Assembly: GCA_007693725.1 (NCBI GenBank)
Contig: REDD01000161.1
Coordinates: forward strand, 1-42,529
DNA length: 42,529 nucleotides
Reading direction: 5' to 3'
DNA from: Phycisphaeraceae bacterium
GTDB lineage: Bacteria; Planctomycetota; Phycisphaerae; Phycisphaerales; UBA1924
Within the stretch, counting starts at the first letter, position 1, and each line of letters starts with the position of its first letter. Of this stretch, positions 4,703 to 29,471 are shown piece by piece. The position numbers and the translations under genes were made by a program. The notes below the pieces were generated by a model that was not told the origin of the DNA, did no database searches, and saw nothing but the letters and a program-made list of their open reading frames with translations.

Positions 4703-4721
4703 CGGCCGCATCCTGCGGCTG
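4703..4721 (-). promoter_or_regulatory. Hairpin in flhF leader
   Basis: GCCGCA (4705-4710) and TGCGGC (4714-4719) form a perfect 6-bp stem with a 3-base loop, extendable by a C-G pair past a wobble. It lies about 25-40 bases upstream of the flhF start, in the 132-base flhA-flhF gap, and just downstream of a GATGCATC palindrome (4730-4737). There is no T-run, so it is not an obvious terminator. A role in translation control is a guess. Confidence 0.3.
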
Positions 4722-4808
4722 CCGGGTGTGATGCATCGTGCATCGGTGTGTGTCTATCTACACGATTCAGGTCTGCGGGGCAATTCCTTTTCTATGTGTC
4801 GTGCGGGA

Positions 4809-6968: not shown

Positions 6969-6986
6969 GTGGTGCGGCTGCGGGTG

Positions 6987-8856: not shown

Positions 8857-8865
8857 CGGTCGTGA

Positions 8866-9123: not shown

Positions 9124-9143
9124 GGCGATTCAACGGCGGCCAG

Positions 9144-10870: not shown

Positions 10871-10940
10871 CGGGCCATCCTGGCATCTGCCTGCCACCGG
10901 CATCCTGCCGATGGGTGCTGACGGGTGCGGTCAGCGGGTG

Positions 10941-13012: not shown

Positions 13013-13039
13013 TGATGCGGATCCTCGGGAGGTGCGGGG

Positions 13040-13828
13040 TCAGGCGGCTCTGCGCATGTCGCGCTCGTCCTCACCGGTGGATCTCCCCTTCGGCGGGAGA
13101 TAGGTGAGCAGCTTCTGCTGGACGACGCGGGGGTTGTCGCCCGCCTGGATGGCCATCACACCCTTGATGATGATGGTCTTGAAGAGGATCTCTTCCTCGT
13201 TGCGGACGGCGAGCTTGTCCGCGATGGGCATGAGCACCACATTTGCGATGACCGCGCCGTAGAGCGTGGTGAGCAACGCCGCGGCCATGCCTGCACCGAT
13301 CTTGGAGGGGTCGTCCATGTTCGCGAGCATGGCGACGAGGCCGATGAGCGTTCCGATCATGCCGAAGGCGGGGGCGTACCTCGCAGGTGCATCAACGAGT
13401 CCCTTTCCGATCTCGTGACGAATCTGCATGTTTTCGAGGTCGGCATCGAGGATCTGCTCGATGAGGGCCGGGTCCGTGCCGTCGACGGCCATCTTGATGC
13501 CGGTGATGAGGAGATCATCCTTCATCTCGGAGGTCATGCCTTCGAGCGCGAGGATGCCGTCGCGACGGGCGACCTCGGCGTACTGCACCATCTGGGTGAT
13601 GAGCTTCTCGGGGTCGTACTTGGTTTCCTTGACCGCCTTGGTGAGGACCGACGGCATCTTGAGCATTCGCGCGAGCGGGAACGCCGTGAGAGTGGCCGCG
13701 CCCGCACCTCCGACCACGATGAGCATGGAGGGGATGTCGACATAGGCGGGGAATGATCCACCGAGAGCGATGGCCATGAGAATCAGTGCTATCCCGAGCA
13801 CCAAGCCGACAAGTGTGGCCAGATCCAT
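13040..13828 (-). CDS. motA: Flagellar stator protein MotA
   Basis: ATG at 13828 has GGAG 6 bases upstream and gives 262 residues starting MDLATLVGLVLGIALILMAI. The four-span MotA/ExbB pattern is present, with conserved ARYAPAFGMIGTLIGLVAML (third span, with the family Pro) and GAGMAAALLTTLYGAVIANVVLMPIADKL (fourth span). The cytoplasmic loop between spans 2 and 3 (about residues 60-150) would contact FliG. It lies 99 bases after flbD and should be driven by the sigma-28-type promoter upstream of flbD. Confidence 0.96.
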   Translation of the reverse strand: MDLATLVGLVLGIALILMAIALGGSFPAYVDIPSMLIVVGGAGAATLTAFPLARMLKMPSVLTKAVKETKYDPEKLITQMVQYAEVARRDGILALEGMTSEMKDDLLITGIKMAVDGTDPALIEQILDADLENMQIRHEIGKGLVDAPARYAPAFGMIGTLIGLVAMLANMDDPSKIGAGMAAALLTTLYGAVIANVVLMPIADKLAVRNEEEILFKTIIIKGVMAIQAGDNPRVVQQKLLTYLPPKGRSTGEDERDMRRAA

Positions 13829-13927
13829 CGCGCACTCCAATCCCGTGGATCCGCCGGACTGGCACGAATCCGGTGGTGTTATCGAGCCGAGGAGGCCGGT
13901 GCTTGAGTCGGGGTGACGGAAATGGGA

Positions 13928-14125
13928 TCAGGACTGCATGACGACGCCGCGGAGGAGGCGTTCGTACTCGACGACGCGGTCGATGATCTCGTCCATCTGC
14001 TCCCGAACCATGACGGATTCGCCATTGGTGAGGCGAACGACGGTATCGGGCGTCCGCTCGACGGTGCGGATGAGCTGAGCATTCAGCACGAATTGTTCGC
14101 CGTTGAGGCGTGTGAGCGGTATCAC
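13928..14125 (-). CDS. flbD: FlbD-family flagellar protein
   Basis: This small protein of 65 residues, MIPLTRLNGEQFVLNAQLI followed by IRTVERTPDTVVRLTNGE and a C-terminal helix MDEIIDRVVEYERLLRG, matches the short FlbD/YlzI family found between flgE and motA in spirochetes and Firmicutes. The start codon is GTG with a G-rich ribosome site (AGGGGGG, about 7 bases away). Its role is not well defined in known systems; it is not the Caulobacter transcription regulator of the same name. A sigma-28-type promoter at 14254-14227 precedes it. Confidence 0.93.
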   Translation of the reverse strand: MIPLTRLNGEQFVLNAQLIRTVERTPDTVVRLTNGESVMVREQMDEIIDRVVEYERLLRGVVMQS

Positions 14126-14226: not shown

Positions 14227-14254
14227 TTATCGGCCCGATCGTCCGCGGCCTTCA
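14227..14254 (-). promoter_or_regulatory. Sigma-28-type promoter for flbD-motA-motB-fliL
   Basis: On the minus strand TGAAG (14254-14250), a 15-base spacer and GCCGATAA (14234-14227) are found in the gap just after the flgE stop. The -10 box is a perfect match to the known sigma-28 consensus. The predicted leader to flbD is about 95 bases. Stator genes are classical sigma-28 targets. Confidence 0.75.
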
Positions 14255-14260
14255 CTCGGG

Positions 14261-15988
14261 TTATCGCGCGATGGCGATCAACTGCTGGAGCAACTGATCA
14301 CTGGTGGTGATGACGCGCGAGGATGCGGAGTAGCCGGTCGAGGTCAGGATCATGTTGATGAATTCCTGGCTGAGATCGACATTGGAGAGTTCGAGCGCTC
14401 CACCGATGATGCGGCCGGTGCCGAAGCCGAGGGGCGTCGTCACGAGAGGCGTCCCGGAGTTGGGGCCGACCCGGAAGAGATTGCCGCCGGAGTCGATGAG
14501 GCCCTCGGGGTTGGTGAACTTCGCCATCGCGACCTGACCGAGCGTGCGTGTGAGGCCGTTGGTGAAGCCGCCGGTCACGATGCCGTTCTCGCCCACCGAG
14601 AAGGTTGACAGTGTTCCGAGGGGTGATCCGTCCTGGAAGGTCGCGGCGATCACCGACGATCCGGCTGCGCCCTCGGGGCTTGCGAAGGCGGTGACATTGC
14701 TGCCCTGGGTGTCGAACGAGAGTGTGAAGTTCAGCGGATCGGATGCTCCGGTGTCGAAGCGGTCGAGTTCGATCGGAATAGGAGTGGTGTCGATGAGCTT
14801 GCCGAAGTTGTCGAACGCGAGGGCGGGGACGATCTGGGTGAATGTCCCGTTGCGGTCTCCGATTTCGAGGTGTGATGCAAGGTCGGTATCGGCCTGGGAA
14901 TGTGCGAATGTTCGCCACTGCGTACCGGATGTGTCCTTGTTGTTCAGGACCACGGTGAGATCGACATTGATCGGGGTTCCGAGCGAGTCGTAGATGGTGA
15001 ATGTGGTTCGGACGGATTCGCCGTCGGCGGATGCGGTCTTGGTGGGCACGAAGAGATTGGGCGGGGTGCCGCCGCCGGCGGGGTTGAAGACGATGTTCTC
15101 TGCGGCAAGACGGAGGTCGTTGAGATCGCCGAAATTGCCTTCGAAACGGATCTCGCCTCCAACGATGCTCCATCCGGCGTTGTCGCCAGCGGAGGCGCCG
15201 GGGACCACACCGAGGACATCCTGCATCCAACCGAGCAGTTCGTTGACGGTGCTCGTCGCCTCGATGGTGAAGGTCGCATCGGGAATGATCTTGCCGCCGC
15301 GTTCCGCGCCTGAGAGCGTGATCCGATCACCGACGACATAGGTGCCGGGGGGGTCGAGGGCGGTCAGAAGCTCGGTGCCGGTGATGTTCACGCCTCCGGC
15401 CTGTATCTGCGGGAAAGTAAAGACGCTGCCGGTCGTGGGGAGTGTGCCGTCGGCGTTCAGGTTGCCGCTGAACTCCACATTGCGGGTGGCTTCGGCGAGA
15501 CTGAGACTCCCGAGGGGTATGTTGAGATCGACGAGCTGTCCCTCGACGATCTGGAAATTCGCATCGACGCCGTAGCCGCGCACGCGAGCGCCGGAGGAGG
15601 TGACGAGATCGTTGACGGCGTTGAACTGGAATGATCCGTCGCGCGTGTAGAACTGGGTTCCGTTGCGTTCGACGATGAAAAAGCCGTCTCCCTCGATGGC
15701 GAGGTCGCTGGCGATGCCGGTGGTGCTTGTGCCGCCGGTGAGGAAGTTGCGCTGCGTGGCCCCGACCCCGACTCCGAGACCGATCTGACTGGGATTGGAG
15801 CCGCCGCCGTTGGCTGTGGGGCCTGCTCCGAGGGAGAGATTCCGCTGGAGTTGAGGCGAGAAGAGCAGGCGGTTGCTCTTGAAGGCGGTGGTATTGACAT
15901 TGGAAATGTTGTTACCGATGACCTCGAGTCTTCGGGAGTTGGTGTTGAGTCCCGAAAGTCCGCTGAACATCGCTGTTGTTGAAGCCAT
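14261..15988 (-). CDS. flgE: Flagellar hook protein FlgE
   Basis: ATG at 15988 (GAGGAG about 8 bases upstream) starts MASTTAMFSGLSGLNTNSRR, the typical hook N-terminus; an upstream in-frame ATG at 16051 is rejected. The 575-residue protein has the conserved rod-type N-terminal heptad region (LEVIGNNISNVNTTAFKSNR), the FlgF/E N domain (ASDLAIEGDGFFIVERNGTQFYTRDG), variable D1/D2 middle domains, and the C-terminal helix GALELSNVDLSQEFINMILTSTGYSASSRVI. It is longer than enterobacterial FlgE (about 400), as is common outside Proteobacteria. I see no cysteine in the mature protein, so the lysinoalanine cross-link of spirochete hooks, which needs one, is not expected. A strong sigma-54 site lies in the upstream gap. 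Confidence 0.96.
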   Translation of the reverse strand: MASTTAMFSGLSGLNTNSRRLEVIGNNISNVNTTAFKSNRLLFSPQLQRNLSLGAGPTANGGGSNPSQIGLGVGVGATQRNFLTGGTSTTGIASDLAIEGDGFFIVERNGTQFYTRDGSFQFNAVNDLVTSSGARVRGYGVDANFQIVEGQLVDLNIPLGSLSLAEATRNVEFSGNLNADGTLPTTGSVFTFPQIQAGGVNITGTELLTALDPPGTYVVGDRITLSGAERGGKIIPDATFTIEATSTVNELLGWMQDVLGVVPGASAGDNAGWSIVGGEIRFEGNFGDLNDLRLAAENIVFNPAGGGTPPNLFVPTKTASADGESVRTTFTIYDSLGTPINVDLTVVLNNKDTSGTQWRTFAHSQADTDLASHLEIGDRNGTFTQIVPALAFDNFGKLIDTTPIPIELDRFDTGASDPLNFTLSFDTQGSNVTAFASPEGAAGSSVIAATFQDGSPLGTLSTFSVGENGIVTGGFTNGLTRTLGQVAMAKFTNPEGLIDSGGNLFRVGPNSGTPLVTTPLGFGTGRIIGGALELSNVDLSQEFINMILTSTGYSASSRVITTSDQLLQQLIAIAR

Positions 15989-16055
15989 GATCTGATCTCC
16001 TCTGCGGTCACCCGGAGCGCACTTCCGGGGCACTTCCGGGACACCGTGCAATATC

Positions 16056-16070
16056 GCAATCGCTATGCCA
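16056..16070 (-). promoter_or_regulatory. Sigma-54 promoter for flgE
   Basis: The minus strand reads TGGCATAGCGATTGC from 16070 to 16056, matching the known -24/-12 consensus TGGCAYR-N4-TTGC at every fixed position, with C before it. It lies in the intergenic gap, with the predicted start about 56 bases upstream of the flgE ATG. Confidence 0.85.
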
Positions 16071-16081
16071 GCGGGCGGCAG

Positions 16082-16603
16082 CTATTTGTTCGAGATGCGT
16101 TCGATGAGTTGTGAGACGCTCGTGTTCTCGACGCGCCCGAGACCTTCGATCCATCTTCCGGTCGAAGCTGCGCGGGCGGTGCCGCCCGAGAAGAGCGTTT
16201 CCGTGTTGAAGGGCTGGTCTTCGTTCGGGACATAGACGAAGGCCTCCAGGTCGCGGACCAGAACTCCCTCGAGATGGAGCGGTCCTTCGATGATGGTTCG
16301 GTCGGCAATGTTCATCCGTACGGCGATGCCGTCGATGGCCGCGACGATCTCGGCAAGCCCGGCTGCCTCGGCGGCATCCGCGACGATGCTGAGGCGTTCG
16401 AGCTGGGACACCGAAAGACTCACCTCGGCGCGCGGATCCACAGCAAGGGGCGATCCGCTGTGAACCTCACCGCGCCGAACACGCGCGAGAAGCTCGGAGA
16501 AAGTTGCGCTGTCGAGCTGGGGGCTCGGCGCGCCTGCGGATGCACCATCAGGACGGATTCCTGATGCGAGATGGCGGAGAAGCTCAGCGCCGGAAGCGTT
16601 CAC
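16082..16603 (-). CDS. Flagellar operon protein between flgD and flgE
   Basis: This 173-residue protein starts with a 4-base overlap (ATGA) on the flgD stop. The central part (about 62-125: SLSVSQLERLSIVADAAEAAG, then LAEIVAAIDGIAVRMNIADRTIIEG) resembles the small flagellar operon protein family (TIGR02530 type) that sits at this place in Firmicutes and spirochetes; the pattern is helix, short strand, then an R-T-I/V-I strand. The N-terminal ~45 residues contain FSELLARVRRGE, and the C-terminal ~45 residues are an extension. The function of the family is not established; the position suggests hook assembly. Family assignment is by eye and moderate. Confidence 0.7.
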   Translation of the reverse strand: MNASGAELLRHLASGIRPDGASAGAPSPQLDSATFSELLARVRRGEVHSGSPLAVDPRAEVSLSVSQLERLSIVADAAEAAGLAEIVAAIDGIAVRMNIADRTIIEGPLHLEGVLVRDLEAFVYVPNEDQPFNTETLFSGGTARAASTGRWIEGLGRVENTSVSQLIERISNK

Positions 16604-17364
16604 TCGGTTTCCTCCTCTTCGCCGGATGACTCAACGAACTTGATCGTGAATCCGGTGGAGACTCGGGCGTTGTGGGAATCGACTGCGGTGACGCGGAGGT
16701 TGATGGAGCCGGTCGCGTCCGCGGGCGGCGTGCCGTAGAACTCGCGGTTGATGGGGTCGAACTTGAGCCAGGCGGGGAGCGGGCTGCCGTCGGTGAGGGT
16801 GGCGGAGTAGGACAGCGACTCGACACCGCCATCGTCGGCGAAGGTTCCGATGTCGAAGCGGAAGCGGAACTCCTGACCGGGCACCGCGGCCTGCTCGGGA
16901 ATGCCCTTCACGACGCGGGGAGCATCATTGTCCGGAGAGCCGCCGACGAGTTCGGGATCAACGACCTCGACGATACGATTCATCGGCACCTTGAAGCCGC
17001 CGCTCAGATTGAGGACGACACCGTCGCGCGTCACGGAGACGGAGTCCACATAGCCGGCGACATCGGCGAGCGATTCGCTCTGCCCGAGGACGAACTTCCC
17101 GATGAGACTGCTGGATGCGGTGATCTCGTTCTGGCGGACCATCTCCGTGAGCCGTTCGCTCATGGCGAGATCCGACTCGATCTGTCGGATGGTGCTGATC
17201 TGGGCCAGAAGGTCTTTGGACTCGTTCGGCGAGAGCGGATCCTGATTCGTCAGTTCCGTGAACATGACACGGATGAAATCCTCACTCTTCATGGAGCTGA
17301 AGGCGTCGGACTTATTGGAGAGCGAGGTGCTTCTTGTCGCGAGGTCGGTGCCGATGGAGGGCAT
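16600..17364 (-). CDS. flgD: Hook-cap/scaffold protein FlgD with C-terminal CADG-type domain
   Basis: The 254-residue protein begins with the conserved FlgD N-region (DFIRVMFTELTNQDPLSPNESKDLLAQISTIRQIE, QDPL at residues 41-44) and the segment SSSLIGKFV. A middle part (100-140) replaces the usual tudor-like fold. From about 152 to 243 it carries a domain with the hallmarks of dystroglycan-type cadherin-like (CADG) modules: FRFDIGTFADDGG, LPAWLKFD, FYGTPPADATGSINLRVTAVDS. Ordinary FlgD ends with a FnIII/tudor hybrid. A clear CADG domain is unusual and may change how the hook cap forms. The start is supported by GGAG 8 bases upstream, and the gene is coupled to the next by a 4-base overlap. Confidence 0.93.
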   Translation of the reverse strand: MPSIGTDLATRSTSLSNKSDAFSSMKSEDFIRVMFTELTNQDPLSPNESKDLLAQISTIRQIESDLAMSERLTEMVRQNEITASSSLIGKFVLGQSESLADVAGYVDSVSVTRDGVVLNLSGGFKVPMNRIVEVVDPELVGGSPDNDAPRVVKGIPEQAAVPGQEFRFRFDIGTFADDGGVESLSYSATLTDGSPLPAWLKFDPINREFYGTPPADATGSINLRVTAVDSHNARVSTGFTIKFVESSGEEEETE

Positions 17365-17388
17365 GGGTCATGCTCCGTGGAGGTGTGG

Positions 17389-18726
17389 CTAGGCAACCGT
17401 CTCGAGCGCAAGTCGGATGCGCTCGAATCGTGTCGTGCTGTCTGTGATTTCGTCGTTGAACTCCGGATCTGCATCCGAGGTTTGCGGGGTCTGCTCCCGC
17501 TTGCCTCGGCTCTCGCCACCACCCGCGTTGGCGCGATCACCGAACGAGCGCGCATCGTCGTTGCGGGCGTTGTGCTGCTGTGATTGGGAGTTGTCGGTGT
17601 TCTGCGACTGGGGCGCGAGCTGCACCCCGATGCGTTCGACGGTGAGCCCCCGTGCTTCCAGCACCGCACGCAGCGACTGGAGATTGCGGTTGAGCATCTC
17701 CTGCGCTTCGGGGCGCACGGCCTCCATCGTCACGGAGACGCTGCCTGCATCGATGCTCATCGCGATGCGGAGCGAACCGAGCGAGGCGGGGTTGAGCAGC
17801 ATCGTGAGGGTGCCGCCCTTCTGATTCAGAACCGCCGCAAGCCCACGAGAAACGCCGGCCGCGAAGGCGGCATCACGCGCGGGAGACTCCGCTCCCGAGT
17901 CGGCGCGCATCGTCAGCGGCGTTGGAGGCGGCTGGGAGCCGGGGTCGTGTCCCGGAGCACCCGGGCGCACACGCGACGATTGCAGCGCGGCATCGAACGC
18001 ACCGGTCGGCTTGGCGACCTCGGCGGAGGTGGATTCCGCCCGCAGGAGGGTGCGTGCGCGGGCCTTCGAGTCGTCCTGGGATGCGGAGTCGTCCGGGGGG
18101 TGCTGGTCGGAGGTCGATCCTGCTTGCATCGCACGGGCATGCTCCGCGGGCGTGCGGTGATCGCCGGATGTGCGGAGCGACTGGGGCTCGCTCTCGGCGG
18201 TGGTTGGGCGAGCAACCTGGGCCTGCTGGCCTGCGGAAGAATCCGCGGATCGGGATGGCCCGCTCTGTGTCTGCACCTTCTGCGATCGCTCGGGCTGGGT
18301 CTTCTCGACGGCGTCCGAAGCCCCCTCCTTGGAGGCGCTGTCACTCGTCTGGCGTTGCTGCTGGGGCACTGGGCGCTGTGCGGATTCGTCCTTGGTCGGT
18401 TTGTCCGATTGTGAGTCGGCCTCGGATCGCGTTCGAGGCGTGTCGGCGCCGACGACGGCGCTCGATCCGGTGTCGGAATCCTCTCTTGAGGTTTCCGCGT
18501 CGGCCTGTTCCTCGGAGGACGGACGATCGGCATCCTCCAGCGCAGGTTCGTGCTCCTTGCGCAGGGATTGCGCGGCATCGTTGCGCGTCTTTGCATCGGG
18601 GGGGGCTGGTGTGGCGTGGTTGACGGCCTTGGCGAAGGGTGCCGCGAAGGATGCCTTCGGCTCGGCGGAGGGACGCTGAGCGTGCTGGAGGGCAAGATTT
18701 GGGGTGATTTGCGGAAGGACAATCAT
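17389..18726 (-). CDS. fliK: Flagellar hook-length control protein FliK
   Basis: This 445-residue protein has a long low-complexity N-terminal part (about 1-280, rich in Ser, Pro, Gln, Asp, Glu), as expected for the ruler segment. A compact C-terminal Flg_hook domain at about 300-385 has GGTLTMLLNPASLGSLRIAM, VSVTMEAVRPEAQEMLNRNL and LRAVLEARGLTVERIGVQL. FliK measures the hook and triggers the FlhB switch. The tail after 390 is Asn/Gln/Arg-rich. The ATG directly follows the stop of the preceding gene. A sigma-54 site lies inside the end of that gene. Confidence 0.93.
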   Translation of the reverse strand: MIVLPQITPNLALQHAQRPSAEPKASFAAPFAKAVNHATPAPPDAKTRNDAAQSLRKEHEPALEDADRPSSEEQADAETSREDSDTGSSAVVGADTPRTRSEADSQSDKPTKDESAQRPVPQQQRQTSDSASKEGASDAVEKTQPERSQKVQTQSGPSRSADSSAGQQAQVARPTTAESEPQSLRTSGDHRTPAEHARAMQAGSTSDQHPPDDSASQDDSKARARTLLRAESTSAEVAKPTGAFDAALQSSRVRPGAPGHDPGSQPPPTPLTMRADSGAESPARDAAFAAGVSRGLAAVLNQKGGTLTMLLNPASLGSLRIAMSIDAGSVSVTMEAVRPEAQEMLNRNLQSLRAVLEARGLTVERIGVQLAPQSQNTDNSQSQQHNARNDDARSFGDRANAGGGESRGKREQTPQTSDADPEFNDEITDSTTRFERIRLALETVA

Positions 18727-19419
18727 TCAGCCGTCTCCGAGCGACCGGGGATCGATCCCCAGTGCCCGGAGGCGTTCAAGCAAATCCGCTGCCAAACGGG
18801 CATCGCGCCCCTCGATGACACCGATGATGCGGGAGGCGGTGCGGGACTTCATCCGGCTCAGGTACATGACCGCCTGATCGATGTCCCCCCCATCGATGAG
18901 CTGCTGGAGGAGATTCGCCGCGGCATCCGGGCGGAGGGTTTCGTAGATGGTGAGTGCCTTGCGGAATTGCTCCGAGCCCTCCATCTCGCGGATCGCCTCA
19001 CGCTGTGCCAGCCACTGATCCCGCTCGGCCTCGAATGCGGCCTGCTCGGCATTGAGTTCGCGGAGCTGACGATCGAGCAGGCGGATGAGGTCTTCGGTCT
19101 CGCGCTGGGTGCGCCGGATGCGGTGATTCACGAGGTCCGCGTGCTCGTCGATGATGAGCATGCGCTGCTCGGCGGTGATCGGCGGCGTGCCGACCTTGGC
19201 CTGCTCGGCCTCCTCACCGGCGAGACGCTCGGCTTCGCGCTCCTCCTTGCGGAGTCGTTCCTCGGTTTCGCTGACCGTCTCAACGAAGATGGAACGGACG
19301 GTCTCGATCCGATCCGAGGAGAGCCGCTCCGTGCCCGCAAGCCACCCGAAAAACATGACCAGCGCGAGCATGTTGGCGAGGGCGAGAGAGGAGATGACCA
19401 ACCAGACCGAACGCATCAT
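18727..19419 (-). CDS. FlbB/MotE-like flagellar protein (MgtE N-domain type)
   Basis: The 230 residues comprise one N-terminal span (about 5-28, SVWLVISSLALANMLALVMFFGW), a long charged coiled coil (about 40-150, ERLRKEEREAERLAGEEAEQ and following) and a C-terminal helical domain (about 155-225) with IYETLRPDAAANLLQQL and AVMYLSRMKSRTASRIIGVI, the pattern of the MgtE N-terminal domain seen in MotE and spirochete FlbB. In known systems these anchor or stabilise stator/collar structures. Its place between fliJ and fliK matches spirochete flbB. It overlaps the fliJ stop by 4 bases. Confidence 0.85.
   Translation of the reverse strand: MMRSVWLVISSLALANMLALVMFFGWLAGTERLSSDRIETVRSIFVETVSETEERLRKEEREAERLAGEEAEQAKVGTPPITAEQRMLIIDEHADLVNHRIRRTQRETEDLIRLLDRQLRELNAEQAAFEAERDQWLAQREAIREMEGSEQFRKALTIYETLRPDAAANLLQQLIDGGDIDQAVMYLSRMKSRTASRIIGVIEGRDARLAADLLERLRALGIDPRSLGDG
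18780..18794 (-). promoter_or_regulatory. Sigma-54 promoter inside flbB/motE-like gene, for fliK
   Basis: The minus strand reads TGGCAGCGGATTTGC (18794-18780), with Y before and T after. It matches TGGCA-N6-TTGC with correct spacing. It lies within the last 70 bases of the preceding gene, in codons using two TTG leucines, which are uncommon in this GC-rich locus. The predicted start is about 42 bases ahead of the fliK ATG. Confidence 0.65.
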
Positions 19420-19949
19420 GGTTCACCTCCGGACGACTGCTGCGGGGCAGGTGCATTGAATGTGCCGATGAGCGAGGAGACGGTGTTGGCGGGCCGGGCG
19501 GCACGCTGGGTGGCGAGTTCATCGGTCTCCCGGTGCTCACGCCGCTTGGCTTCGGTGACCCACTCGCGATATCGGCGTTCCTTCAGAGCTTCCACGGCAC
19601 GCCGGCGCGTGGTGGCTTCGAGGAGCTGGGCGCGTGCTGCTTCGAGCCGCTGGTGAACACCGGCCAGCCGGAGGACTGCCTGCTGCGCCTTGATGTGCAG
19701 CCCCATCGCCGCACCGGCCTGGAGACGGAGCAGGGATGGATCCAGGAGCGTGCGCCCGTTGTCCATCGTGCGGGTCATGGCGGATTGCAGGTTGGTCTTG
19801 CAGTCCTTGATGGAGGATTGATACCCGCGGATCTCCGCCTCGATGACCGCACGATCCTGCTCCGCCCGGGCGACGACCACCTGACGGTCGCGCTCGATGC
19901 GACGCCGGTGTTCGAGGAGAGGATCGAGTGGGAAGCGAAATCGGGGCAT
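19416..19949 (-). CDS. fliJ: Flagellar export protein FliJ
   Basis: This 177-residue protein is predicted to be almost entirely coiled coil, starting PRFRFPLDPLLEHRRRIERD, typical of FliJ (residues F-x-L-x-x-L-L). FliJ is the stalk subunit that connects the FliI ATPase to FlhA. It follows fliI after 53 bases, and the next gene overlaps by 4 bases. Sequence conservation is low in the family, so position and the N-terminal motif carry the call. Confidence 0.88.
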   Translation of the reverse strand: MPRFRFPLDPLLEHRRRIERDRQVVVARAEQDRAVIEAEIRGYQSSIKDCKTNLQSAMTRTMDNGRTLLDPSLLRLQAGAAMGLHIKAQQAVLRLAGVHQRLEAARAQLLEATTRRRAVEALKERRYREWVTEAKRREHRETDELATQRAARPANTVSSLIGTFNAPAPQQSSGGEP

Positions 19950-20002
19950 GGCTTTGTCGTATCAGGAAAGTGAGGTGTTTCAGAAAGGATCGGCGGAGTC
20001 GG

Positions 20003-21367
20003 CTAGCGCGCTCGAGCGGGATTCCGGAGGTTTTTGATCTGCGACTGCTGCCGGGCCTGATGCGGTGTCTGGGCGATGCTCACGAGTGTTTTGATGGTCT
20101 GTTCGAAGGGGGCGGACTCGTCGACGGTCTGATTCAAGAGCGCATCCAGATGGGGCTTCAGGGCGATGGCACGGTCGGCCTCGGGATTGGAGCCGTGCGT
20201 GTACGCGCCGATCTGGAGGAGTTCTTCGATGTCCTTGTACGCGGCGAGGAGACGCTGTGCCTCGCGGCGCGCGCCCTTGTGCTCCTCGGTCGCGATCTCC
20301 TCGGCGAGTCGGGAGACCGAATCGAGAACATCGATGGCGGGGTAGTGGGCTCGCTGCGCCAGATGCCGGGAGAGCATGATGTGGCCGTCGAGGATGCCAC
20401 GCACCGCATCGGCGACGGGCTCGGTCATGTCGTCCCCCTCGACGAGAACGGTGTAGAAGGCGGTGATGGATCCGGTGCCATCGACCGCGCCCGCCCGCTC
20501 AAGGAGGACCGGGAGCGCCGCGAAGACGGACGGGGTGTAGCCGCGAGTGGCGGGCGGCTCCCCCACCGCAAGACCGATCTGACGCTGCGCGTGCGCGAAT
20601 CGCGTCACGGAGTCGAGCATCAGCAGGACATCCTTGCCTCGGTCGCGGAAGTGCTCCGCGATGGCGCAGGCGCCTTGGGCCGCGCGGACCCGCGCAAGGG
20701 GCGATTCATCGGAAGTCGAGACCACAACGACCGAGCGTGCGAGCCCCTCCGCACCGAGGGCGTGCTGGATGAAGTCGCGCACCTCACGCCCGCGCTCGCC
20801 GATCATGGCGATGACATTCACTTCGGAGGCGGCGTTGCGGGCGATCATGGCGAGCAGCGTTGACTTCCCGACACCCGGCCCAGCGAAGAGGCCGAGTCGC
20901 TGACCGCGCCCGATGGGCGTCATCGCATCGATCGCACGGACTCCGGTCGGCAGCGCGGTCCGGATCGGGGAACGGGCCATGGCCCCGATGGGCGGCGGAA
21001 TGATCGGGCGCGGAATGGTGTCGCGGATGGGAGGCCCGGCATCGATGGGCGCGCCGAAGGCGTTGACGACCCGCCCGAGCATGTGATCCGAGACGGGGAT
21101 GGAGGGCGTGGACTCGCGAGCAACGACACGATCGCCGGCACGGATACCGGCCGTGTGGCCGAGGAGCATGACGATGGTCCGCGCCCCGTCGAAGCCCACG
21201 ACCTCCGCGGGCTGGGCGCCATGCGTGGAGTGGACCTCGACGATGGAACCAACCGGCACGGGGAAATCCGCCACCAGGAGCGTCAGGCCGCGGAGCGACA
21301 GCACGGATCCGGAGATGCCTCGCGGCTCGGTGTGGCTGACGCGATGGAACGCTGCGGTAAGTGGCAT
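20003..21367 (-). CDS. fliI: Flagellum-specific ATPase FliI
   Basis: This 454-residue ATPase of the F1-beta-like type III class has Walker A GPGVGKST at 163-170, EVNVIAMIGERGREVRDFI, the Walker B region DVLLMLDSVTRFAHAQRQIGLA, and the C-terminal helical part (EIATEEHKGARREAQRLLAAYKD). It energises unloading of export substrates with FliH and FliJ. ATG at 21367 shares one base with the fliH stop (TGATG); GTG one codon earlier is also possible. Confidence 0.97.
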   Translation of the reverse strand: MPLTAAFHRVSHTEPRGISGSVLSLRGLTLLVADFPVPVGSIVEVHSTHGAQPAEVVGFDGARTIVMLLGHTAGIRAGDRVVARESTPSIPVSDHMLGRVVNAFGAPIDAGPPIRDTIPRPIIPPPIGAMARSPIRTALPTGVRAIDAMTPIGRGQRLGLFAGPGVGKSTLLAMIARNAASEVNVIAMIGERGREVRDFIQHALGAEGLARSVVVVSTSDESPLARVRAAQGACAIAEHFRDRGKDVLLMLDSVTRFAHAQRQIGLAVGEPPATRGYTPSVFAALPVLLERAGAVDGTGSITAFYTVLVEGDDMTEPVADAVRGILDGHIMLSRHLAQRAHYPAIDVLDSVSRLAEEIATEEHKGARREAQRLLAAYKDIEELLQIGAYTHGSNPEADRAIALKPHLDALLNQTVDESAPFEQTIKTLVSIAQTPHQARQQSQIKNLRNPARAR

Positions 21368-22113
21368 CACTGTGTCGGAGCAGAATCGGTGTCGCTGTCT
21401 GGTGGGGTGGCGAGATGCCGCTGGGGGAGGAGCGCCTCGACGAGGCGCGCGATCTGCGTGTCGATGGATGCATCGATGATGCCGTGCTCCGTGCGAATGA
21501 AGACCGAACCGCGCGCCAGAGCGGGATCGTCGTGGAGCTGCGCGTGCGTTGCGTGATGCAGACGCTGGAGGAGCGTCGGCAGCACTTCCTCAGCCGAGGC
21601 GCGATCGTCCGGATGGATGCAGATGATCAGTCGCGTCGGGCGCTGCACGAGTTCGAGTGCGCCTTCGAGCTGGCGCGTAACGAGCGCCTGATCGAGTTCG
21701 ACAACACGACGGGTGACCTTCTCGGCGACGAGGGCCGCGAGGCGAAGCATGTCGGCCCGTGCATCGTGCAGCATGTTCTCACGCGCCTGCTCGAAGCCGT
21801 CGAGCGCCTGCTGCCACGCTTCCAGCATTGTCTTTGCATCCTGCTGCGCCTGCTGCACGGCCTCGGCATGGCCCTCGGATCGCCCCTTTTCGAATCCCTC
21901 GGCGTAGCCCCGTTCTTGTCCGCTTGTATGACCCAGCGCATCCGCATCCGCGATGAGGCGCTCTCGCTCCTGTTTGGCTTCATCAACAATCCGGTTCGCG
22001 CGTGCGATCGCATCGGCCTCCAGCCGCTCGGCTTCGCGCCGGAGGTCTCCCAGGTGAAGAACGACCGCGCTCTGCATGTCGGGACCGTTGGTGGATGACT
22101 TGATGAGCGGCAT
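21367..22113 (-). CDS. fliH: Flagellar assembly protein FliH
   Basis: The 248-residue protein has a central coiled coil (DLRREAERLEADAIARANRIVDEAKQERE), glycine-containing repeats of GxxxG type (GQERGYAEGFEKGRSEGHAEA) and a C-terminal V-ATPase E-like domain (LVAEKVTRRVVELDQALVTRQLEGAL, LIICIHPDD), the standard FliH layout. FliH regulates FliI. I see no good ribosome site at ATG 22113 or at the next in-frame ATG, so the start is less sure. It follows fliG after 32 bases. Confidence 0.92.
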   Translation of the reverse strand: MPLIKSSTNGPDMQSAVVLHLGDLRREAERLEADAIARANRIVDEAKQERERLIADADALGHTSGQERGYAEGFEKGRSEGHAEAVQQAQQDAKTMLEAWQQALDGFEQARENMLHDARADMLRLAALVAEKVTRRVVELDQALVTRQLEGALELVQRPTRLIICIHPDDRASAEEVLPTLLQRLHHATHAQLHDDPALARGSVFIRTEHGIIDASIDTQIARLVEALLPQRHLATPPDSDTDSAPTQ

Positions 22114-22145
22114 GGCGGGGTGTTCAGAAGGTCTCCGGAATCAGA

Positions 22146-23186
22146 TCAGACAATGAGTTCCTCTGCGCCGCCGCGTCCGGCGATGATGATCTCTCCGGCC
22201 TCTTCGAGGCGGCGAACAATATCGACGATGCGCTGCTGGGCGGACTCGACATCCGAGACACGCACCGGACCCATGTACTCCATGTCCTCCTTGATGAGCT
22301 GCGAGGCACGCTCGGACATGTTCGTGAAGATGTGCTCCTGCAACTCCGGCGATGCGGTCTTGAGCGCGAGGGCGAGTTCGTCGTTGTCGACTTCGCGGAG
22401 CACCGCCTGGATGCCCTTGTCGTCGACAAGCTTGATGTCCTCGAAGACGAACATGAGCCGCCGGATCTCTTCGACAAGGTCCGGATCATCCGCTTCGAGA
22501 CCTTCGAGAATCGCCTTCTCGGTGGCGCGATCGGCGAGGTTCAGCACCTCGGCGACGGTGTTCACGCCGCCCGCCTTCTCCATCGACTGCGTGAGCATCG
22601 CGGACAGGCGAGATTCCAGCCCCTTCTCGACCTCGCGGATGACCTCCGGATTCGTCTGCTCCATGTTGGCGATGCGCTTGATCACCTCGATCTGCTTCTG
22701 CATCGGCAGACCCGCGAGGATCTCGGCGGCCTTGTGATGATTCAGGTGGCAGACGATCAGCGCGATGGTCTGCGGGTGCTCATCCTGAATGAAGGTCAAG
22801 AGATTCTCCGCCTCGGCCTTCTGGAGGAACGAGAAGGGCGCACGCGTCACCTGCGTCTGGATCTGCGAGAGGATACGGTCTGCAACGGACGGATCGAGCG
22901 CTTCACGCAGGAGATTCTTCGCGAAGTCGAGATTGCCCTCGTTGTCGGCATGGAAGGCCACGGAGAGGCCGTAGAACTCCTCGACCACTTCCATCCGGAG
23001 CTTCTCGGGAACGATGCCGAGCTGCGCGATCTCCCGCGTCAGCTCCTCGACCTGCTCGCCGGACATGTGCTTGAGAATCTTCGCGGAAGCTGCGTGATCC
23101 AGCGAAACGAACAGGATGGCCGACTTCGTGAGGCCGTCGAGCTCGCTTGCGGAGGTTGGGAGTTTTTCACCGGGCTTACGCGGCAT
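22146..23186 (-). CDS. fliG: Flagellar motor switch protein FliG
   Basis: The 346-residue protein has the three FliG domains. The N domain (LTKSAILFVSLDHAASAKILKHM) attaches to FliF. The middle domain has the EHPQT motif at 136-140 followed by IALIVCHL. The C-terminal torque domain has the charged helix DDPDLVEEIRRLMFVFEDIKLVDDKGIQAVLREVDNDELALALK, with the Arg/Asp residues that interact with MotA in known motors. It follows fliF after 25 bases. Confidence 0.97.
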   Translation of the reverse strand: MPRKPGEKLPTSASELDGLTKSAILFVSLDHAASAKILKHMSGEQVEELTREIAQLGIVPEKLRMEVVEEFYGLSVAFHADNEGNLDFAKNLLREALDPSVADRILSQIQTQVTRAPFSFLQKAEAENLLTFIQDEHPQTIALIVCHLNHHKAAEILAGLPMQKQIEVIKRIANMEQTNPEVIREVEKGLESRLSAMLTQSMEKAGGVNTVAEVLNLADRATEKAILEGLEADDPDLVEEIRRLMFVFEDIKLVDDKGIQAVLREVDNDELALALKTASPELQEHIFTNMSERASQLIKEDMEYMGPVRVSDVESAQQRIVDIVRRLEEAGEIIIAGRGGAEELIV

Positions 23187-23211
23187 GATCGATTCCGTTC
23201 CCCGGTGGGTC

Positions 23212-24930
23212 TTAGTTCTGAGCCATCATCCAGCGCGAGACCAGGCGTGCCGCATCATCGGGGTGCTCGTTGACCATGTTGGCCACCTGCTCCAACACCT
23301 TGCGTTGCCGCAGAGCATCCTCGCTCAACTCGATGCCCGCGAGTGCGGAGTCCGCGGCATCCGCCTCGCCGATCACGCCCTCATCCTTCTCAAGCGTGGG
23401 CGGGATGCCGACGAGTTCGGCCGCACTCGGCAACTCCTCGCGCTTGTTGGCTTTGACGGCGGTGAACACGACCAACCCCAAGGCGAGCACCGCGAGCGCC
23501 CCCAGCGCCACGGTCTTCACGACCTCAGAGAGGTCCGCAGTGGTGGTCCCGAAACCGAGAATGCTGCCGGGCCCGGTCCCCGCCGCGTTCGGGCCCATGC
23601 CGGGGGGATAGATGTCGAATGATGTCGGGATCATCGAAACGACGACTTCGCCCGGGTGCGTCCCATCGAACCCCGTGGTATCGACGATCCTGCGCACATC
23701 GTTCTCGATCCGCGTCAACTCATCATCAACGATCGGGTGCAGCAACTCGTCCGATGGGTCCGCCGGAGTTGCATCATCCTCGGCCTGACCGGAGCGGGCA
23801 CGCTGCTGCTTCCAGATCTCGACGAAGTACGAACGAGGGATGTTCACCACGGCGTTGATTTTCGTCGGATGGCCGCCGGGGTTCGTCTCGCTCTCCACAC
23901 GCTCGCCGAAGCGATTCTCGAATGTCGTATCGTTCTGCGTTTCCGTGCTCGTCATCCCCCCACCGCCCCCGGAGGCGACATCGGCTCCGGTGTTGGGGCG
24001 TACGCCCGGCTCACCCGCGGTACGCGACTCGCGGTCCTGTCGCTCCGTGATGCGCTCCATGGACACCATCGAGGTCGAACCCTGCCCCTCCGGCAGCACC
24101 GTGCGGGTCTGCGACTGACGAAGCGATGCATCGACCGCGGCCTGCACCGTCACGATCACACCGGGGATGTAGCGGAGCATGTCGGCGATCTGCTCCTGCT
24201 TGCGCTGCTCGATGTGCGAGACCAACTCCTGCGTGGTGGTCGCCGTGATCTGCCCGTCTTGGCGCGGCCGGTGCTGCCGCCCCGTCGTGCCGTCAACGAT
24301 GCGTATCCGCTCGGGCAGGAGTCCGGCGCGGGAACCCGCGACCAGACTCGCGATGGCATCGACCATCTGCTGGGAGAGCCCCGACTCCGTGATGAGATTG
24401 ACCGCCGCGGTCGGCTGGCGCGCCGGAGTGCCCAGCGACACCCGATCCGGAACATCGATGACGACCTGCGCCGAGCGCACGCCGGGCCAGAGCGAGATCA
24501 TCGCGCCGATCTCGTTCTGGAGAGCGATGATCTCGAGCTGTCGATTCTGCTGGTAGGACTTGGTCCACGACTGGCGATCGATGACATTGTTGAAGAGCAG
24601 ACGGGTATCCGACGGCAGTGTGCCCGGCTGACGGGCCATCTGCGCCAGGATCCGCTGGCGTGAACCCACCGGCACCATCACCGTACCGGAGGAATCGGTG
24701 CGGTAGACCAACCCCTGCTGATCGAGGTACGACGCGGCACGCTGCTGATCTTCCGGGCTGTACCCGGCGTCGAGCAGCGGCACGACCGCCGGCTTCGCGG
24801 TGTACTGCTGAACCACGAACAGCGTCATCAGCAGAACCACGACGACCGATGCGACAAGCAGACGCTGGCTCGTGGTGAGCTGCGCCAGGGCGCCCCGGAT
24901 CGTTTCCAGCGTCTTGCGCAGACGCTCCAT
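23212..24930 (-). CDS. fliF: Flagellar MS-ring protein FliF
   Basis: This 572-residue protein has two membrane spans (about 25-42 and 467-487) flanking a large periplasmic region with the ring-building motifs. These are seen in VPLLDAGYSPEDQQRAASYL (RBM1), the YscJ-like LEIIALQNEIGAMISLWPGVRSAQVVID (RBM2), and RBM3 with ITATTTQELVSHIEQRKQEQIADMLRYIPG. The short C-terminal cytoplasmic tail ending DAARLVSRWMMAQN is the FliG-binding segment. It is preceded by a 161-base gap after fliE that carries repeated motifs. Confidence 0.97.
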   Translation of the reverse strand: MERLRKTLETIRGALAQLTTSQRLLVASVVVVLLMTLFVVQQYTAKPAVVPLLDAGYSPEDQQRAASYLDQQGLVYRTDSSGTVMVPVGSRQRILAQMARQPGTLPSDTRLLFNNVIDRQSWTKSYQQNRQLEIIALQNEIGAMISLWPGVRSAQVVIDVPDRVSLGTPARQPTAAVNLITESGLSQQMVDAIASLVAGSRAGLLPERIRIVDGTTGRQHRPRQDGQITATTTQELVSHIEQRKQEQIADMLRYIPGVIVTVQAAVDASLRQSQTRTVLPEGQGSTSMVSMERITERQDRESRTAGEPGVRPNTGADVASGGGGGMTSTETQNDTTFENRFGERVESETNPGGHPTKINAVVNIPRSYFVEIWKQQRARSGQAEDDATPADPSDELLHPIVDDELTRIENDVRRIVDTTGFDGTHPGEVVVSMIPTSFDIYPPGMGPNAAGTGPGSILGFGTTTADLSEVVKTVALGALAVLALGLVVFTAVKANKREELPSAAELVGIPPTLEKDEGVIGEADAADSALAGIELSEDALRQRKVLEQVANMVNEHPDDAARLVSRWMMAQN

Positions 24931-24980
24931 GCTCGGCCTCCATGCCTCATCTCAGCGCGATCCTCACGCGGAGCGCGCGG

Positions 24981-25063
24981 ATGACGCGCTGATTGTGACT
25001 TTCGGCACTGTCGGAGATTGCGCTTGAATGACGCGCGATTTCTGCGCTAGAGACGCGCAGATT
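24981..25063. repeat. Three imperfect ATGACGCGC-GATT repeats between fliE and fliF
   Basis: Plus-strand copies begin at 24981 (ATGACGCGCTGATT), 25028 (ATGACGCGCGATTT) and about 25049 (GAGACGCGCAGATT). The minus-strand consensus is AATCnGCGCGTCAT. Starts are spaced 47 and about 22 bases apart. They fill the 161-base fliE-fliF gap and could be binding sites for a regulator. No promoter matching the sigma-54 or sigma-28 patterns was found in this gap. Confidence 0.5.
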
Positions 25064-25091
25064 CTGCCGTTCACCTTCATCGCGACGAGCA

Positions 25092-25418
25092 TCAGACCCG
25101 GATCTGCTTCACCTCGTCGTACGCATCCATCATCTTGTTGCGGAGGGCCTGAATGGTCCGGAACGCGAGATCGGCCTTCTGCGTCGCCAGCAGAACCGTC
25201 TCGACATCATCACGCCGACCGGACTGGAGATCCTCGATCGCCTGCGTGGCGTCCTGCTGCAACTGGTTGACCGAACGGAGGTTATCCATCAACAACTGCT
25301 TGAACGACGGCGCGTTCGGATCGGACGCCGCCGGACTGCTCGGCCTCGCCCCCGGCCCCTGCAACGGGTTGATGGGCGTGTTTCCGCCGGCATTGATCAG
25401 TCCGAGTGGGTCCGCCAT
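25092..25418 (-). CDS. fliE: Flagellar MS ring-rod junction protein FliE
   Basis: At 108 residues it has the standard length. It has a Pro/Gly-rich first 35 residues and the conserved C-terminal helices: SFKQLLMDNLRSVNQLQQDATQAI, then RDDVETVLLATQKADLAFRTIQALRNKMMDAYDEV. FliE joins the MS ring to the proximal rod and is an early export substrate. It follows flgC after 42 bases, with a strong sigma-54 site in the end of flgC. Confidence 0.96.
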   Translation of the reverse strand: MADPLGLINAGGNTPINPLQGPGARPSSPAASDPNAPSFKQLLMDNLRSVNQLQQDATQAIEDLQSGRRDDVETVLLATQKADLAFRTIQALRNKMMDAYDEVKQIRV

Positions 25419-25460
25419 GAGAGTGCCCGATCAGTCCTTCAGGAACCGAGAAGTCATTGA

Positions 25461-25877
25461 CTACGCGATGAGACGCAACGCCTGTGCCAGCATGGATTTC
25501 GTCGCATCCGCCGCCGAGACATTCGCCTCGTACGACCGCATCGCCTCCATCGCGTTGATCTCCTCCGTCACGGGGTCGATGTTCGGGTAGTAGACATACC
25601 CCGCGTCCGGGTGGTCACTCGGCTTGGCGTAGGGATTCGTCGGATCCCAGACCTTCCGCGGCTCGGAGTCCGCATCGATCTCGATGGAGTGGACCCGGAC
25701 GCCCTGCGGCGCATCGCGCCCCGCCGGGGCCAGCGTCACGAACCGACGCTTGAACTCCGACGGATTGCCGACCGCATCCAGAATGGTGTCGCGGTTCGCC
25801 AGATTCGCGGCGACAACATCCATGCGGGTGCGCTGGGCGATCATGCCGCTGACCGAGATGTCCAAGCTGCCGTACAT
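25461..25877 (-). CDS. flgC: Proximal rod protein FlgC
   Basis: The 138-residue protein has the rod N-terminal helix (LDISVSGMIAQRTRMDVVAANLANRDTI), the middle segment with GYVYYPNIDPVTEEINAMEAMRSYEANVSA, and the C-terminal helix ATKSMLAQALRLIA, a good match to FlgC. The last codons contain a sigma-54 promoter for fliE. It follows flgB after 58 bases. Confidence 0.96.
   Translation of the reverse strand: MYGSLDISVSGMIAQRTRMDVVAANLANRDTILDAVGNPSEFKRRFVTLAPAGRDAPQGVRVHSIEIDADSEPRKVWDPTNPYAKPSDHPDAGYVYYPNIDPVTEEINAMEAMRSYEANVSAADATKSMLAQALRLIA
25475..25489 (-). promoter_or_regulatory. Sigma-54 promoter inside the end of flgC, for fliE-fliF-
   Basis: The minus strand reads TGGCACAGGCGTTGC (25489-25475) with C before it, matching TGGCAYR-N4-TTGC at every fixed position. 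It occupies the final codons of flgC (the L-A-Q-A-L part), again using TTG for Leu. The predicted start is about 45 bases ahead of the fliE ATG. Confidence 0.75.
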
Positions 25878-25935: not shown

Positions 25936-26376
25936 TTACAGGCGTTCACGGATGGCCGTGTTGAGGATGTCCACGCGAGACCGCAGCAACTCCGTCGCGA
26001 CCCGGAAGACCCCCGCATTCTCGACCAGATCCTGCATCGTTCTCTCAAGGTCTCGGTTGTTTCGATCGTGATAGAGAATCCCCTGCCCCGAGGCGCGAGG
26101 ACGAAGTTGCAGTCTCCCCCGCCCATCCTGCGCGACTTCGCGGGAGGAGGTGATGTTCAGATCCCCGCGGTGGCCGCCGAAGCGGGTCCGCCGACGGTCG
26201 ATCGCCTCCCCGAGCTGCCGCTGGAACGAGCGGGGATCGACATCCACGGGCTCGTAGTTCGGCGTGTTCAGGTTGGCGATGTTGTGCGTGATCAGCGCGT
26301 GACGCTGCGCGGCGAACTGGATCGTCGCCTGCAGCGAGGGTAGAGAGTCCGCATTGGTGACCTGAGCGATGAACAT
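25936..26376 (-). CDS. flgB: Proximal rod protein FlgB
   Basis: ATG at 26376 gives 146 residues starting MFIAQVTNADSLPSLQATIQ; an in-frame ATG 81 bases upstream lies inside the preceding regulator gene and would add unconserved residues. It shows the flagellar rod signature FAAQRHALITHNIANLNTPNYEPVDVDPRSFQ and the C-terminal helix FRVATELLRSRVDILNTAIRERL. The ribosome site (GGGAG, 10 bases away) is weak. It opens the structural part of the locus, after the regulator genes. Confidence 0.94.
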   Translation of the reverse strand: MFIAQVTNADSLPSLQATIQFAAQRHALITHNIANLNTPNYEPVDVDPRSFQRQLGEAIDRRRTRFGGHRGDLNITSSREVAQDGRGRLQLRPRASGQGILYHDRNNRDLERTMQDLVENAGVFRVATELLRSRVDILNTAIRERL

Positions 26377-26420
26377 GGCCGGACAACTCCCGCAAACGGC
26401 GCGCCGTTCCGCCCCAGACC

Positions 26421-27866
26421 TCAGAGGGTCTCGGCGACGAGCTGCATTTCCTTCCACTTCTTGAGCTTCAATCCGAGGGTCCGGACACCGATCCCCAGCG
26501 CGTGCGCGGTCTTCTGGCGGTGCCCGCCGAAGTGTTCGAGCGTCTGGACGATGACCTCCCGCTCGATGTCCGCAAGCGGACGCGGGGATTCCCCCGCCGC
26601 CGACCCGTTGGAGGACGCCTCGGGGCGCGTCTGCACGGGCTTGGGCTCACGGACCGAGTCGCTCCGAACGCCGTGGAGCCACGGCCCGATCAGATCCGCT
26701 CGGATGATGCCGCCGGTCGCCAGCACGACCGCACGCTCACAGAGGTTCTGCAGCTCGCGGACATTGCCCGGCCAGCGATAGGCCATCAGCAGGGAGATCG
26801 CCTCGGGGGTCAGTTCCAGCGGCTCGCGCCCGTCGCGGAGACACGCCTGCTCGACAAAGTGGGGCGCGAGCATGGCGACATCCGCGATGCGCTCACGCAG
26901 CGGCGGGAGATGGACCGGAAGCACATTCAGACGGAAGAACAGATCCTGCCGGAAAGATCCCCGCGCCGCTTCCTCCACGAGATCCCGATTCGTCGTGGCC
27001 ACCACACGAACATCCACACCGATCGTCACCGAAGACCCGACGCGCTCGAACGCCCGCTCCTGCAACACACGAAGCAGCTTGGCCTGGATCTGGGGCTTGA
27101 TCTCCGAGATTTCGTCAAGAAGCAGCGTGCCGCGGTTGGCAAGCTCGAAGCGACCCTTCCGCAGCTTCTCCGCGCCCGTGAACGAACCCCGCTCGTGACC
27201 GAACAACTCCGACTCAAGGAGCGCTTCGCTCATGGCGGCACAGTTCACCGCCAGAAACGGCTCCGGAGCCCGCGGACTGAGATCGTGGATGGCCCGCGCG
27301 ACAACCTCTTTGCCCGTGCCCGATTCGCCCGAGATCAGCACCGTGCCGTGCGAGCCCGCGATCGCCGGGAGTCGCTCCTTGACGATCTTCATCGCCTCGG
27401 ACTGCCCGATCAGGCGATCGAGCCCCATGGGCTGATCATCCTCATTCGATTGCGAGGACCGCGAGGGTGTGGAGCGACGGAACACCTCGTTGTCGCGCTT
27501 GAGCCGTGCGTGCTCGATCGCTCGCTTCACGGCGATCAGCAGCTCATCACCCTCGAACGGCTTGGTGATGTAGTCGTAGGCGCCCAGCTTGAGCGCCTGC
27601 ACGGCGGTATCAATCGTGCCGTAGGCGGTCATCAGAATGATCGGCAGATCGTCGTCGATCTCCCGGATCTTCCGGATGAGTTCGATGCCGGAAAGACCGG
27701 GCATCTTCAGATCCGTCACGACGACATCCGGTCGCTTTCGCGCGATCGCTTCGAGTGCGGATGCCCCGTCCGGCGCTGTCACGACGCTGAAACCCGGACG
27801 CTGGAGCGTGACCGCAATCGAGTCGCGCAGCATCTCTTTGTCGTCGACAACCAGAACCGTGTTCAT
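26421..27866 (-). CDS. Sigma-54-dependent response regulator (FlgR/NtrC type)
   Basis: The 481-residue protein has a receiver domain 1-120 with phosphoacceptor D52 (VVVTDLKMPG) and K102. An AAA+ sigma-54 interaction domain spans about 148-395 (Walker A GESGTGKE at 180-187, Walker B LLLDEI at 248-253, R-finger area FRQDLFFRLNVLPV). A Fis-type helix-turn-helix sits at about 435-475 (HRQKTAHALGIGVRTLGLKLKK). The sigma-54 contact loop reads GSFTGA (227-232) rather than GAFTGA, a conservative variant. It is presumably the activator of the sigma-54 sites found before fliE, fliK and flgE, comparable to FlgR of epsilonproteobacteria. The start overlaps the stop of the kinase gene by 4 bases. Confidence 0.95.
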   Translation of the reverse strand: MNTVLVVDDKEMLRDSIAVTLQRPGFSVVTAPDGASALEAIARKRPDVVVTDLKMPGLSGIELIRKIREIDDDLPIILMTAYGTIDTAVQALKLGAYDYITKPFEGDELLIAVKRAIEHARLKRDNEVFRRSTPSRSSQSNEDDQPMGLDRLIGQSEAMKIVKERLPAIAGSHGTVLISGESGTGKEVVARAIHDLSPRAPEPFLAVNCAAMSEALLESELFGHERGSFTGAEKLRKGRFELANRGTLLLDEISEIKPQIQAKLLRVLQERAFERVGSSVTIGVDVRVVATTNRDLVEEAARGSFRQDLFFRLNVLPVHLPPLRERIADVAMLAPHFVEQACLRDGREPLELTPEAISLLMAYRWPGNVRELQNLCERAVVLATGGIIRADLIGPWLHGVRSDSVREPKPVQTRPEASSNGSAAGESPRPLADIEREVIVQTLEHFGGHRQKTAHALGIGVRTLGLKLKKWKEMQLVAETL

Positions 27867-29361: not shown

Positions 29362-29471
29362 CCTTGACCAATCCTGATTTTGGCGCGGCTCCACCGCGCG
29401 GTGTATGCCGATTGTTTCGGGCGACTCATGCCGGATGGTTCAGTTTTTGCGCGAAACCGTGGCCCAGCCGC

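Follow-up and report, generated by a model that had tools for sequence, protein, structure and literature searches.

The window analysed here, a stretch of 42,529 nucleotides that forms one contig (C286) of a 2.71 Mb genome bin of a Phycisphaeraceae bacterium, carries a long row of flagellar genes on its minus strand. It is very probable that this one conserved row is transcribed in nested blocks, by sigma-54 RNA polymerase and then by FliA (sigma-28), and that promoters inside its genes are kept there by synonymous codons. From high to low coordinate the row begins with flgN, a histidine kinase gene, a sigma-54-dependent response regulator gene, flgB, flgC, fliE, fliF, fliG, fliH, fliI and fliJ, continues with a motE-like gene, fliK, flgD, an unknown gene, flgE, flbD, motA, motB and a gene in the fliL position, and ends with fliN, fliO, fliP, fliQ, fliR, flhB, flhA, flhF, flhG, the gene of a small membrane protein and fliA. 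The closest named relatives of the window are Phycisphaerales bins (Planctomycetota).

Sigma-54 Sites Within and Before Flagellar Genes

The original prediction had located strong sigma-54 sites before fliE, fliK and flgE. All three are present at these places; the fliE and fliK sites, however, lie inside the 3' ends of the preceding genes rather than between genes, and only the flgE site is intergenic. Scores are those of a position weight matrix (PWM).

25489-25474, minus strand: sigma-54 -24/-12 site TGGCACAGGCGTTGCG inside the last codons of flgC; predicted fliE promoter, start expected near 25463
18794-18779, minus strand: sigma-54 -24/-12 site TGGCAGCGGATTTGCT inside the 3' end of the motE-like gene; predicted fliK promoter, start expected near 18768
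17708-17693, minus strand: decayed sigma-54 site inside fliK, here GCG CAG GAG ATG C; window score 2.9
16070-16055, minus strand: intergenic sigma-54 site TGGCATAGCGATTGCG before flgE; start expected near 16044; PWM score 15.0, exact match

The site at the end of flgC has the top sigma-54 score in the window (PWM 15.3). It belongs to the 11 exact matches to TGGCAY-N5-TTGC in the 2.7 Mb genome, two of which fall in the window (before fliE and flgE) and one inside flgL. A loose consensus search of the window alone was uninformative, with 12 matches against 13.4 expected by chance. The window sites owe their significance to the exact forms and most of all to the comparison with relatives, not to the window scan. 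Outside the flagellar row, a lone sigma-54-like match (TGGCGCCGACATTGCT, score 13.4) was seen at 42259-42244, and exact sites elsewhere in the genome directly precede dnaK and clpB, both identified by eye from sequence.

The comparison set consisted of 107 non-redundant FliG loci, in which strong sigma-54 matches numbered 271 in sense and 25 in antisense orientation. At a score of at least 11.5, the motE-end site was found in 86 of 99 loci and the site before fliE in 41 of 93, in both cases with no antisense match. At score 11, a site between the regulator gene and flgB was present in 42 of 92 loci (one antisense). The antisense controls, like the codon scan described below, do not depend on the choice of matrix. 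The conservation expected by the original prediction thus holds, at the same places, for the sites before fliE and fliK, but the flgE site is lineage-specific. The sigma factor that the prediction presupposed is also encoded, outside the window: rpoN lies on another contig (C47) of the same genome (E 1.7e-57), and it was detected in all 61 genomes.

In distant Planctomycetota, the site most often seen was the one before flgB. An occurrence of the same intragenic sites throughout the phylum was rejected, as beyond the order mainly the pre-flgB site was seen, and the in-gene sites seem to have arisen within this order. A strict mutual exclusion of the sites before flgB, flgC and fliE was likewise dismissed once the flgB start had been corrected: 15 genomes contain both the flgB and the fliE site (Fisher p 0.06).

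The hook genes deserve separate mention. The site inside fliK is intact in 44-47 relatives and destroyed in the window genome, which has the strong intergenic site close to flgE instead. Genomes without the fliK-internal site carried one between fliK and flgE in 13 of 33 cases, those with it in 5 of 44 (p 0.006), and the relatives that share the flgE site are mostly among those lacking the fliK-internal one. The pattern suggests a turnover of promoters in the hook block.

Codon Usage at the In-Gene Sites

Since the flgC, motE and fliK sites lie inside coding sequence, protein constraint was tested by an unbiased scan of the codons used in 568 Leu and 576 Ala alignment columns and by an in-frame motif count over 22 flagellar genes. 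In the scanned columns, the background fraction was 0.09 for TTG among Leu codons and 0.10 for GCA among Ala codons. The frequencies were very different at the end of flgC (GCA 38/74, 51%; TTG 58/91, 64%), at the end of motE (GCA 84/99, 85%; TTG 95/99, 96%) and inside fliK (GCA 49/67, 73%; TTG 48/62, 77%). The top three TTG columns and the top three GCA columns of the scan fall at these same three places, with a spacing that gives GGCA-N5-TTGC. Of 223 in-frame occurrences of this motif in the 22 genes, 164 are in the three columns.

Residues between and around the fixed codons vary, whereas the nucleotides of the site stay. Four-fold degenerate third positions of fliG are near saturation (median identity to the window 0.47, against 0.41 expected from composition), and shared ancestry therefore does not explain the conserved codons. 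On a tree of FliG and FliI, each site changed state, by gain or loss, at least 10-15 times. To judge from these codon patterns, the putative promoter sites within genes are kept by the synonymous choice of rare codons.

A second flagellar locus of the same genome, on another contig (C122), unites flgI, flgK, flgL, fliW, csrA and the flagellin gene. Within flgL, 267-270 bases upstream of the stop codon, a sigma-54 site is present in the bacterium's own genome and in most of 20 loci examined. The fixed codon of this site is NTT, whether it encodes V, L, I or F, which by its sequence pattern points to a signal at the nucleotide level. Sense-strand sigma-54 sites inside upstream genes are thus found in flgC, motE, fliK and flgL, with those in flgC and motE located in the window and that in flgL elsewhere in the same genome.

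Sigma-28-like Sites and FliA

Sites of the sigma-28 type had been predicted before flbD-motAB and before the fliA unit. Both are present and conserved at the same places in relatives. The inventory was nevertheless incomplete: a third site, between flbD and motA and also conserved in relatives, had been overlooked.

14254-14227, minus strand: sigma-28-like site TGAAG-N15-GCCGATAA after flgE, before flbD; score 22.0, the best sigma-28 score in the window
13906-13879, minus strand: sigma-28-like site TCAAG-N15-CTCGATAA between flbD and motA; score 20.0
2240-2213, minus strand: sigma-28-like site TGAAG-N15-CCCGATAG before the unit of small membrane protein and fliA; score 19.1

At score 12, the site after flgE was detected in 47 of 90 loci in sense orientation (one antisense) and the site after flbD in 36 of 47 (no antisense). 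The fliA-unit site was found at score 10 in the same place in 20 of 30 relatives, again with no antisense match. Of the four occurrences of the exact form TSAAG-N15-SYCGATAR in the 2.7 Mb genome, three are in the window, correctly oriented ahead of flbD, of motA and of the fliA unit; as the form was derived from these sites and relatives, the count is a measure of rarity and no independent test. Many genomes have the -10 element of the post-flgE site within the last codons of flgE (GGC CGA TAA). Elsewhere, CGA accounts for 10% of Arg codons and TAA is a minority stop codon.

Two further observations concern these regions. The flbD-motA-motB block is missing between flgE and fliL in about half of the relatives, often with the post-flgE site still there, and sigma-28-like sites after fliE, before fliF, were seen in 13 of 93 loci (no antisense).

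FliA was found in 59 of 61 genomes. In the window, its predicted place at the tail of the cluster was borne out by profile families (Pfam, NCBIfam). A second FliA-like sigma factor (3-740, minus strand), directly downstream of fliA and cut by the contig end, shares 67% identity with it over 12-250; three genomes of one family (f4) likewise have fliA genes paired in tandem. For the anti-sigma factor FlgM, the best match in the bacterium's own genome scored 21.8 bits (cut-off 25), and 47 of 61 genomes have a match above the cut-off.

At flagellin starts, sigma-28 matches were weak (5/39 at score 12, none antisense), and sigma-28 sites directly before flagellin genes were rejected as a general rule. 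The flagellin leaders in the fliW-csrA type of locus share CACGGAGGA at the ribosome-binding site, likely a CsrA target.

Kinase, Regulator and Gene Annotation

A sigma-54 activator and a kinase had been expected at the head of the cluster, and searches with Pfam and NCBIfam confirmed both. The response regulator has NtrC-type architecture, with PF00072, PF00158 and PF02954 above their cut-offs. Their identification with FlgS and FlgR was not upheld: the regulator reached 306 bits against the FlgR family NF049963 (cut-off 750) and the kinase 87.5 bits against the FlgS family NF049962 (cut-off 600), so that neither is an equivalog. The order kinase, regulator, flgB, flgC, fliE was held in most loci covering that region.

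The genes of the row, all on the minus strand, were annotated as follows.

28858..29394: flgN-like export chaperone gene (Pfam FlgN, 1.9e-8)
27863..28861: histidine kinase, candidate sensor (HisKA and HATPase_c)
26421..27866: sigma-54-dependent response regulator (Pfam REC, AAA+ and Fis HTH; GSFTGA loop in the sequence)
25936..26457: flgB, true start probably near 26376 (TIGR01396 under its cut-off, position, synteny)
25461..25877: flgC, host of the fliE promoter site (rod-protein Pfam domains, synteny)
25092..25418: fliE (Pfam)
19416..24930: fliF, fliG, fliH, fliI and fliJ (Pfam)
18727..19419: motE-like gene, host of the fliK promoter site (position and conserved order; without Pfam match)
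16600..18726: fliK and flgD (Pfam)
14261..15988: flgE, start taken at MASTT (Pfam)
11692..14125: flbD, motA, motB and the fliL-position gene (Pfam for flbD, motA and motB)
2260..11498: fliN, fliO, fliP, fliQ, fliR, flhB, flhA, flhF and flhG (Pfam)
1880..2188: membrane protein of about 100 amino acids preceding fliA (tblastn: upstream of fliA in 21 of 29 relatives)
762..1715: fliA, sigma-28 (TIGR02479, 245.6 bits against a cut-off of 189.6)

The membrane protein at 1880-2188 matched no family above its cut-off in a Pfam search. In most relatives its gene separates the sigma-28-like site from fliA, and it is a candidate FliA partner. An overlapping open reading frame at 1743-2198 was rejected as the gene preceding fliA, as it has no homologues and the frame at 1880-2188 is the conserved one. 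FliM is not encoded within the cluster, which is ordinary, since relatives also encode it elsewhere. FlgD (16600-17364) bears an Ig-like He_PIG domain at its C-terminus. A gene with a protein-kinase domain adjoins an ECF sigma factor gene at 33643-36929, upstream of the row.

Proposed Transcription Programme and Alternatives

In the programme that we propose, the kinase, on a signal of its own, and the response regulator encoded just upstream would switch on sigma-54 RNA polymerase. Transcripts would start inside the 3' end of flgC and run into fliE, fliF and the following genes, and inside the 3' end of the motE-like gene to cover fliK, flgD and the genes behind them. This genome would have another sigma-54 start immediately ahead of flgE; the same hook genes would be served in most relatives by a site that lies within fliK or ahead of flgD. 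FliA would then start transcription after flgE and after flbD, giving flbD, motA and motB and possibly reaching the export-gate genes; a further start ahead of its own unit would provide positive feedback. A FlgM-like anti-sigma factor would be part of the chain in most relatives. The division into early, middle and late blocks made by the original prediction survives in that promoter-like sites within the row divide the conserved series of genes, but equating late with sigma-28 is too simple in view of the sigma-54 site in flgL.

Several points weigh against this programme. The promoters are predictions known from sequence alone. Absolute scores are approximate for both sigma factors, as general knowledge was the source of the sigma-54 matrix and the sigma-28 matrix was adjusted to sites from this clade. 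The sixth base of the motE site is G instead of C, and the flgE site has few counterparts (4 of 89 loci at a score of at least 11.5). No conserved operator of the regulator was found near the sites; the flgB set showed no conserved block outside the site, and in the coding sets the search was dominated by protein constraint. Finally, FliA orthologues are kept in four relatives (G042, G048, G050, G054) without FliG and flagellin, two of them also with a FlgM match, indicating that FliA is not purely flagellar everywhere and possibly has a non-flagellar role.

The missing operator, together with the failure of both proteins to pass the cut-offs of curated flagellar regulators, would also fit real sites that serve a different activator, with the adjacent kinase and regulator doing another job. 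We regard this as unlikely, because the order from the kinase gene to fliE is mostly kept and the regulator has the REC, AAA+ and HTH domains. It is very improbable that something else acting at the nucleotide level conserves the embedded motifs, for instance a structure in the RNA, translational coupling or a site of mRNA processing. In favour of this, the motifs are near gene junctions, and conserved nucleotides do not by themselves reveal what reads the signal. The conserved bases, however, follow the 16-base -24/-12 geometry with a free spacer and in sense orientation, hundreds of bases separate the fliK-internal site from the gene that follows, and an activator gene is adjacent. Moreover, the matching sites before dnaK and clpB are consistent with the prediction of a regulon study that sigma-54 controls heat-shock genes in Planctomycetota (PMC12316311). 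The notion that the strings are by-products of conserved protein sequence and codon usage, without promoter function, can appeal to the conserved peptides in which they fall (LAQAL in FlgC, LAADLL in MotE, ARELL in FliK) and to the window scan at chance level, but it is very improbable and is already largely refuted by the codon scan: the rare codons reach 51-96% only at these columns, middle residues change with the nucleotides fixed (including the variable residue in FlgL), and the same motif recurs in the region between regulator gene and flgB with its near-absence in antisense.

For the wider evolutionary course we lean only slightly towards the following account. In Phycisphaerales, sigma-54 control would have moved from the pre-flgB site into the flgC, motE, fliK and flgL coding sequences, where the sites were kept by codon choice and many times lost or replaced, so that basal body, hook and fliW-csrA-flagellin came under sigma-54 and motor, export gate and fliA under sigma-28.

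Relation to Known Systems

The programme resembles the FlgSR-RpoN-FliA cascades of Campylobacter and Helicobacter and the FleSR/FlrBC systems of Pseudomonas and Vibrio (PMC7064773). The claim that this lineage follows epsilonproteobacterial logic is right as to RpoN and the sigma-54 and sigma-28 sites, but the regulators are not FlgS and FlgR and genes are allocated differently. In contrast to FlgSR-type systems, promoter sites here lie inside coding sequence, and fliW-csrA-flagellin lies behind a sigma-54 site. In Campylobacter, the FlgSR checkpoint is the assembly of fliF-fliG with the export gate (PMC7064773). Here, fliF-fliG is behind the fliE sigma-54 site and fliPQR-flhBA behind sigma-28-like sites, and the checkpoint order therefore cannot be identical. 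We infer that the first basal bodies come from basal or read-through transcription, or that the sensed checkpoint differs.

Intragenic sigma-54 promoters as such are already known. In E. coli, promoters found by chromatin immunoprecipitation and sequencing (ChIP-seq) connect nagB to nagE, yqeC to yqeB and rlmD to relA, with long leaders (PMC4591121). The sites described here share with them that a sense site inside one gene, conserved across species, drives (in our case, by prediction) the next gene, but differ in that several sites cut one flagellar row, order-wide, and are visible as codon anomalies. What is new is the order-wide, codon-locked set in a flagellar row. Predicted sigma-54 regulons were reported to be enriched for motility genes in Planctomycetia and for heat-shock genes in Planctomycetota (PMC12316311); for motility, the accessible text names Planctomycetia and not Phycisphaerae, and it mentions neither FliA nor the word "intragenic".

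The spirochete-type flagellar megaoperon has the order flgB-flgC-fliE-...-flbD-motAB-fliL-...-flhA-flhF-flhG and runs from a sigma-70 promoter. The gene order of the window appears to be alike, but here internal sigma-54 and sigma-28 sites divide the row.

A search of the open-access literature found no flagellar promoter map for this group. As far as that literature shows, the present analysis provides the first map, at the level of promoters, of how flagella are controlled in this section of the Planctomycetota. It indicates that regulatory signals can be held fixed within protein-coding sequence across an order, and that embedded promoters are detectable as codon anomalies without experiment, by a method applicable to uncultured groups of any kind. 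A test also becomes possible of how a flagellar checkpoint would work with the MS-ring genes behind a sigma-54 promoter and the export-gate genes behind a sigma-28 promoter.

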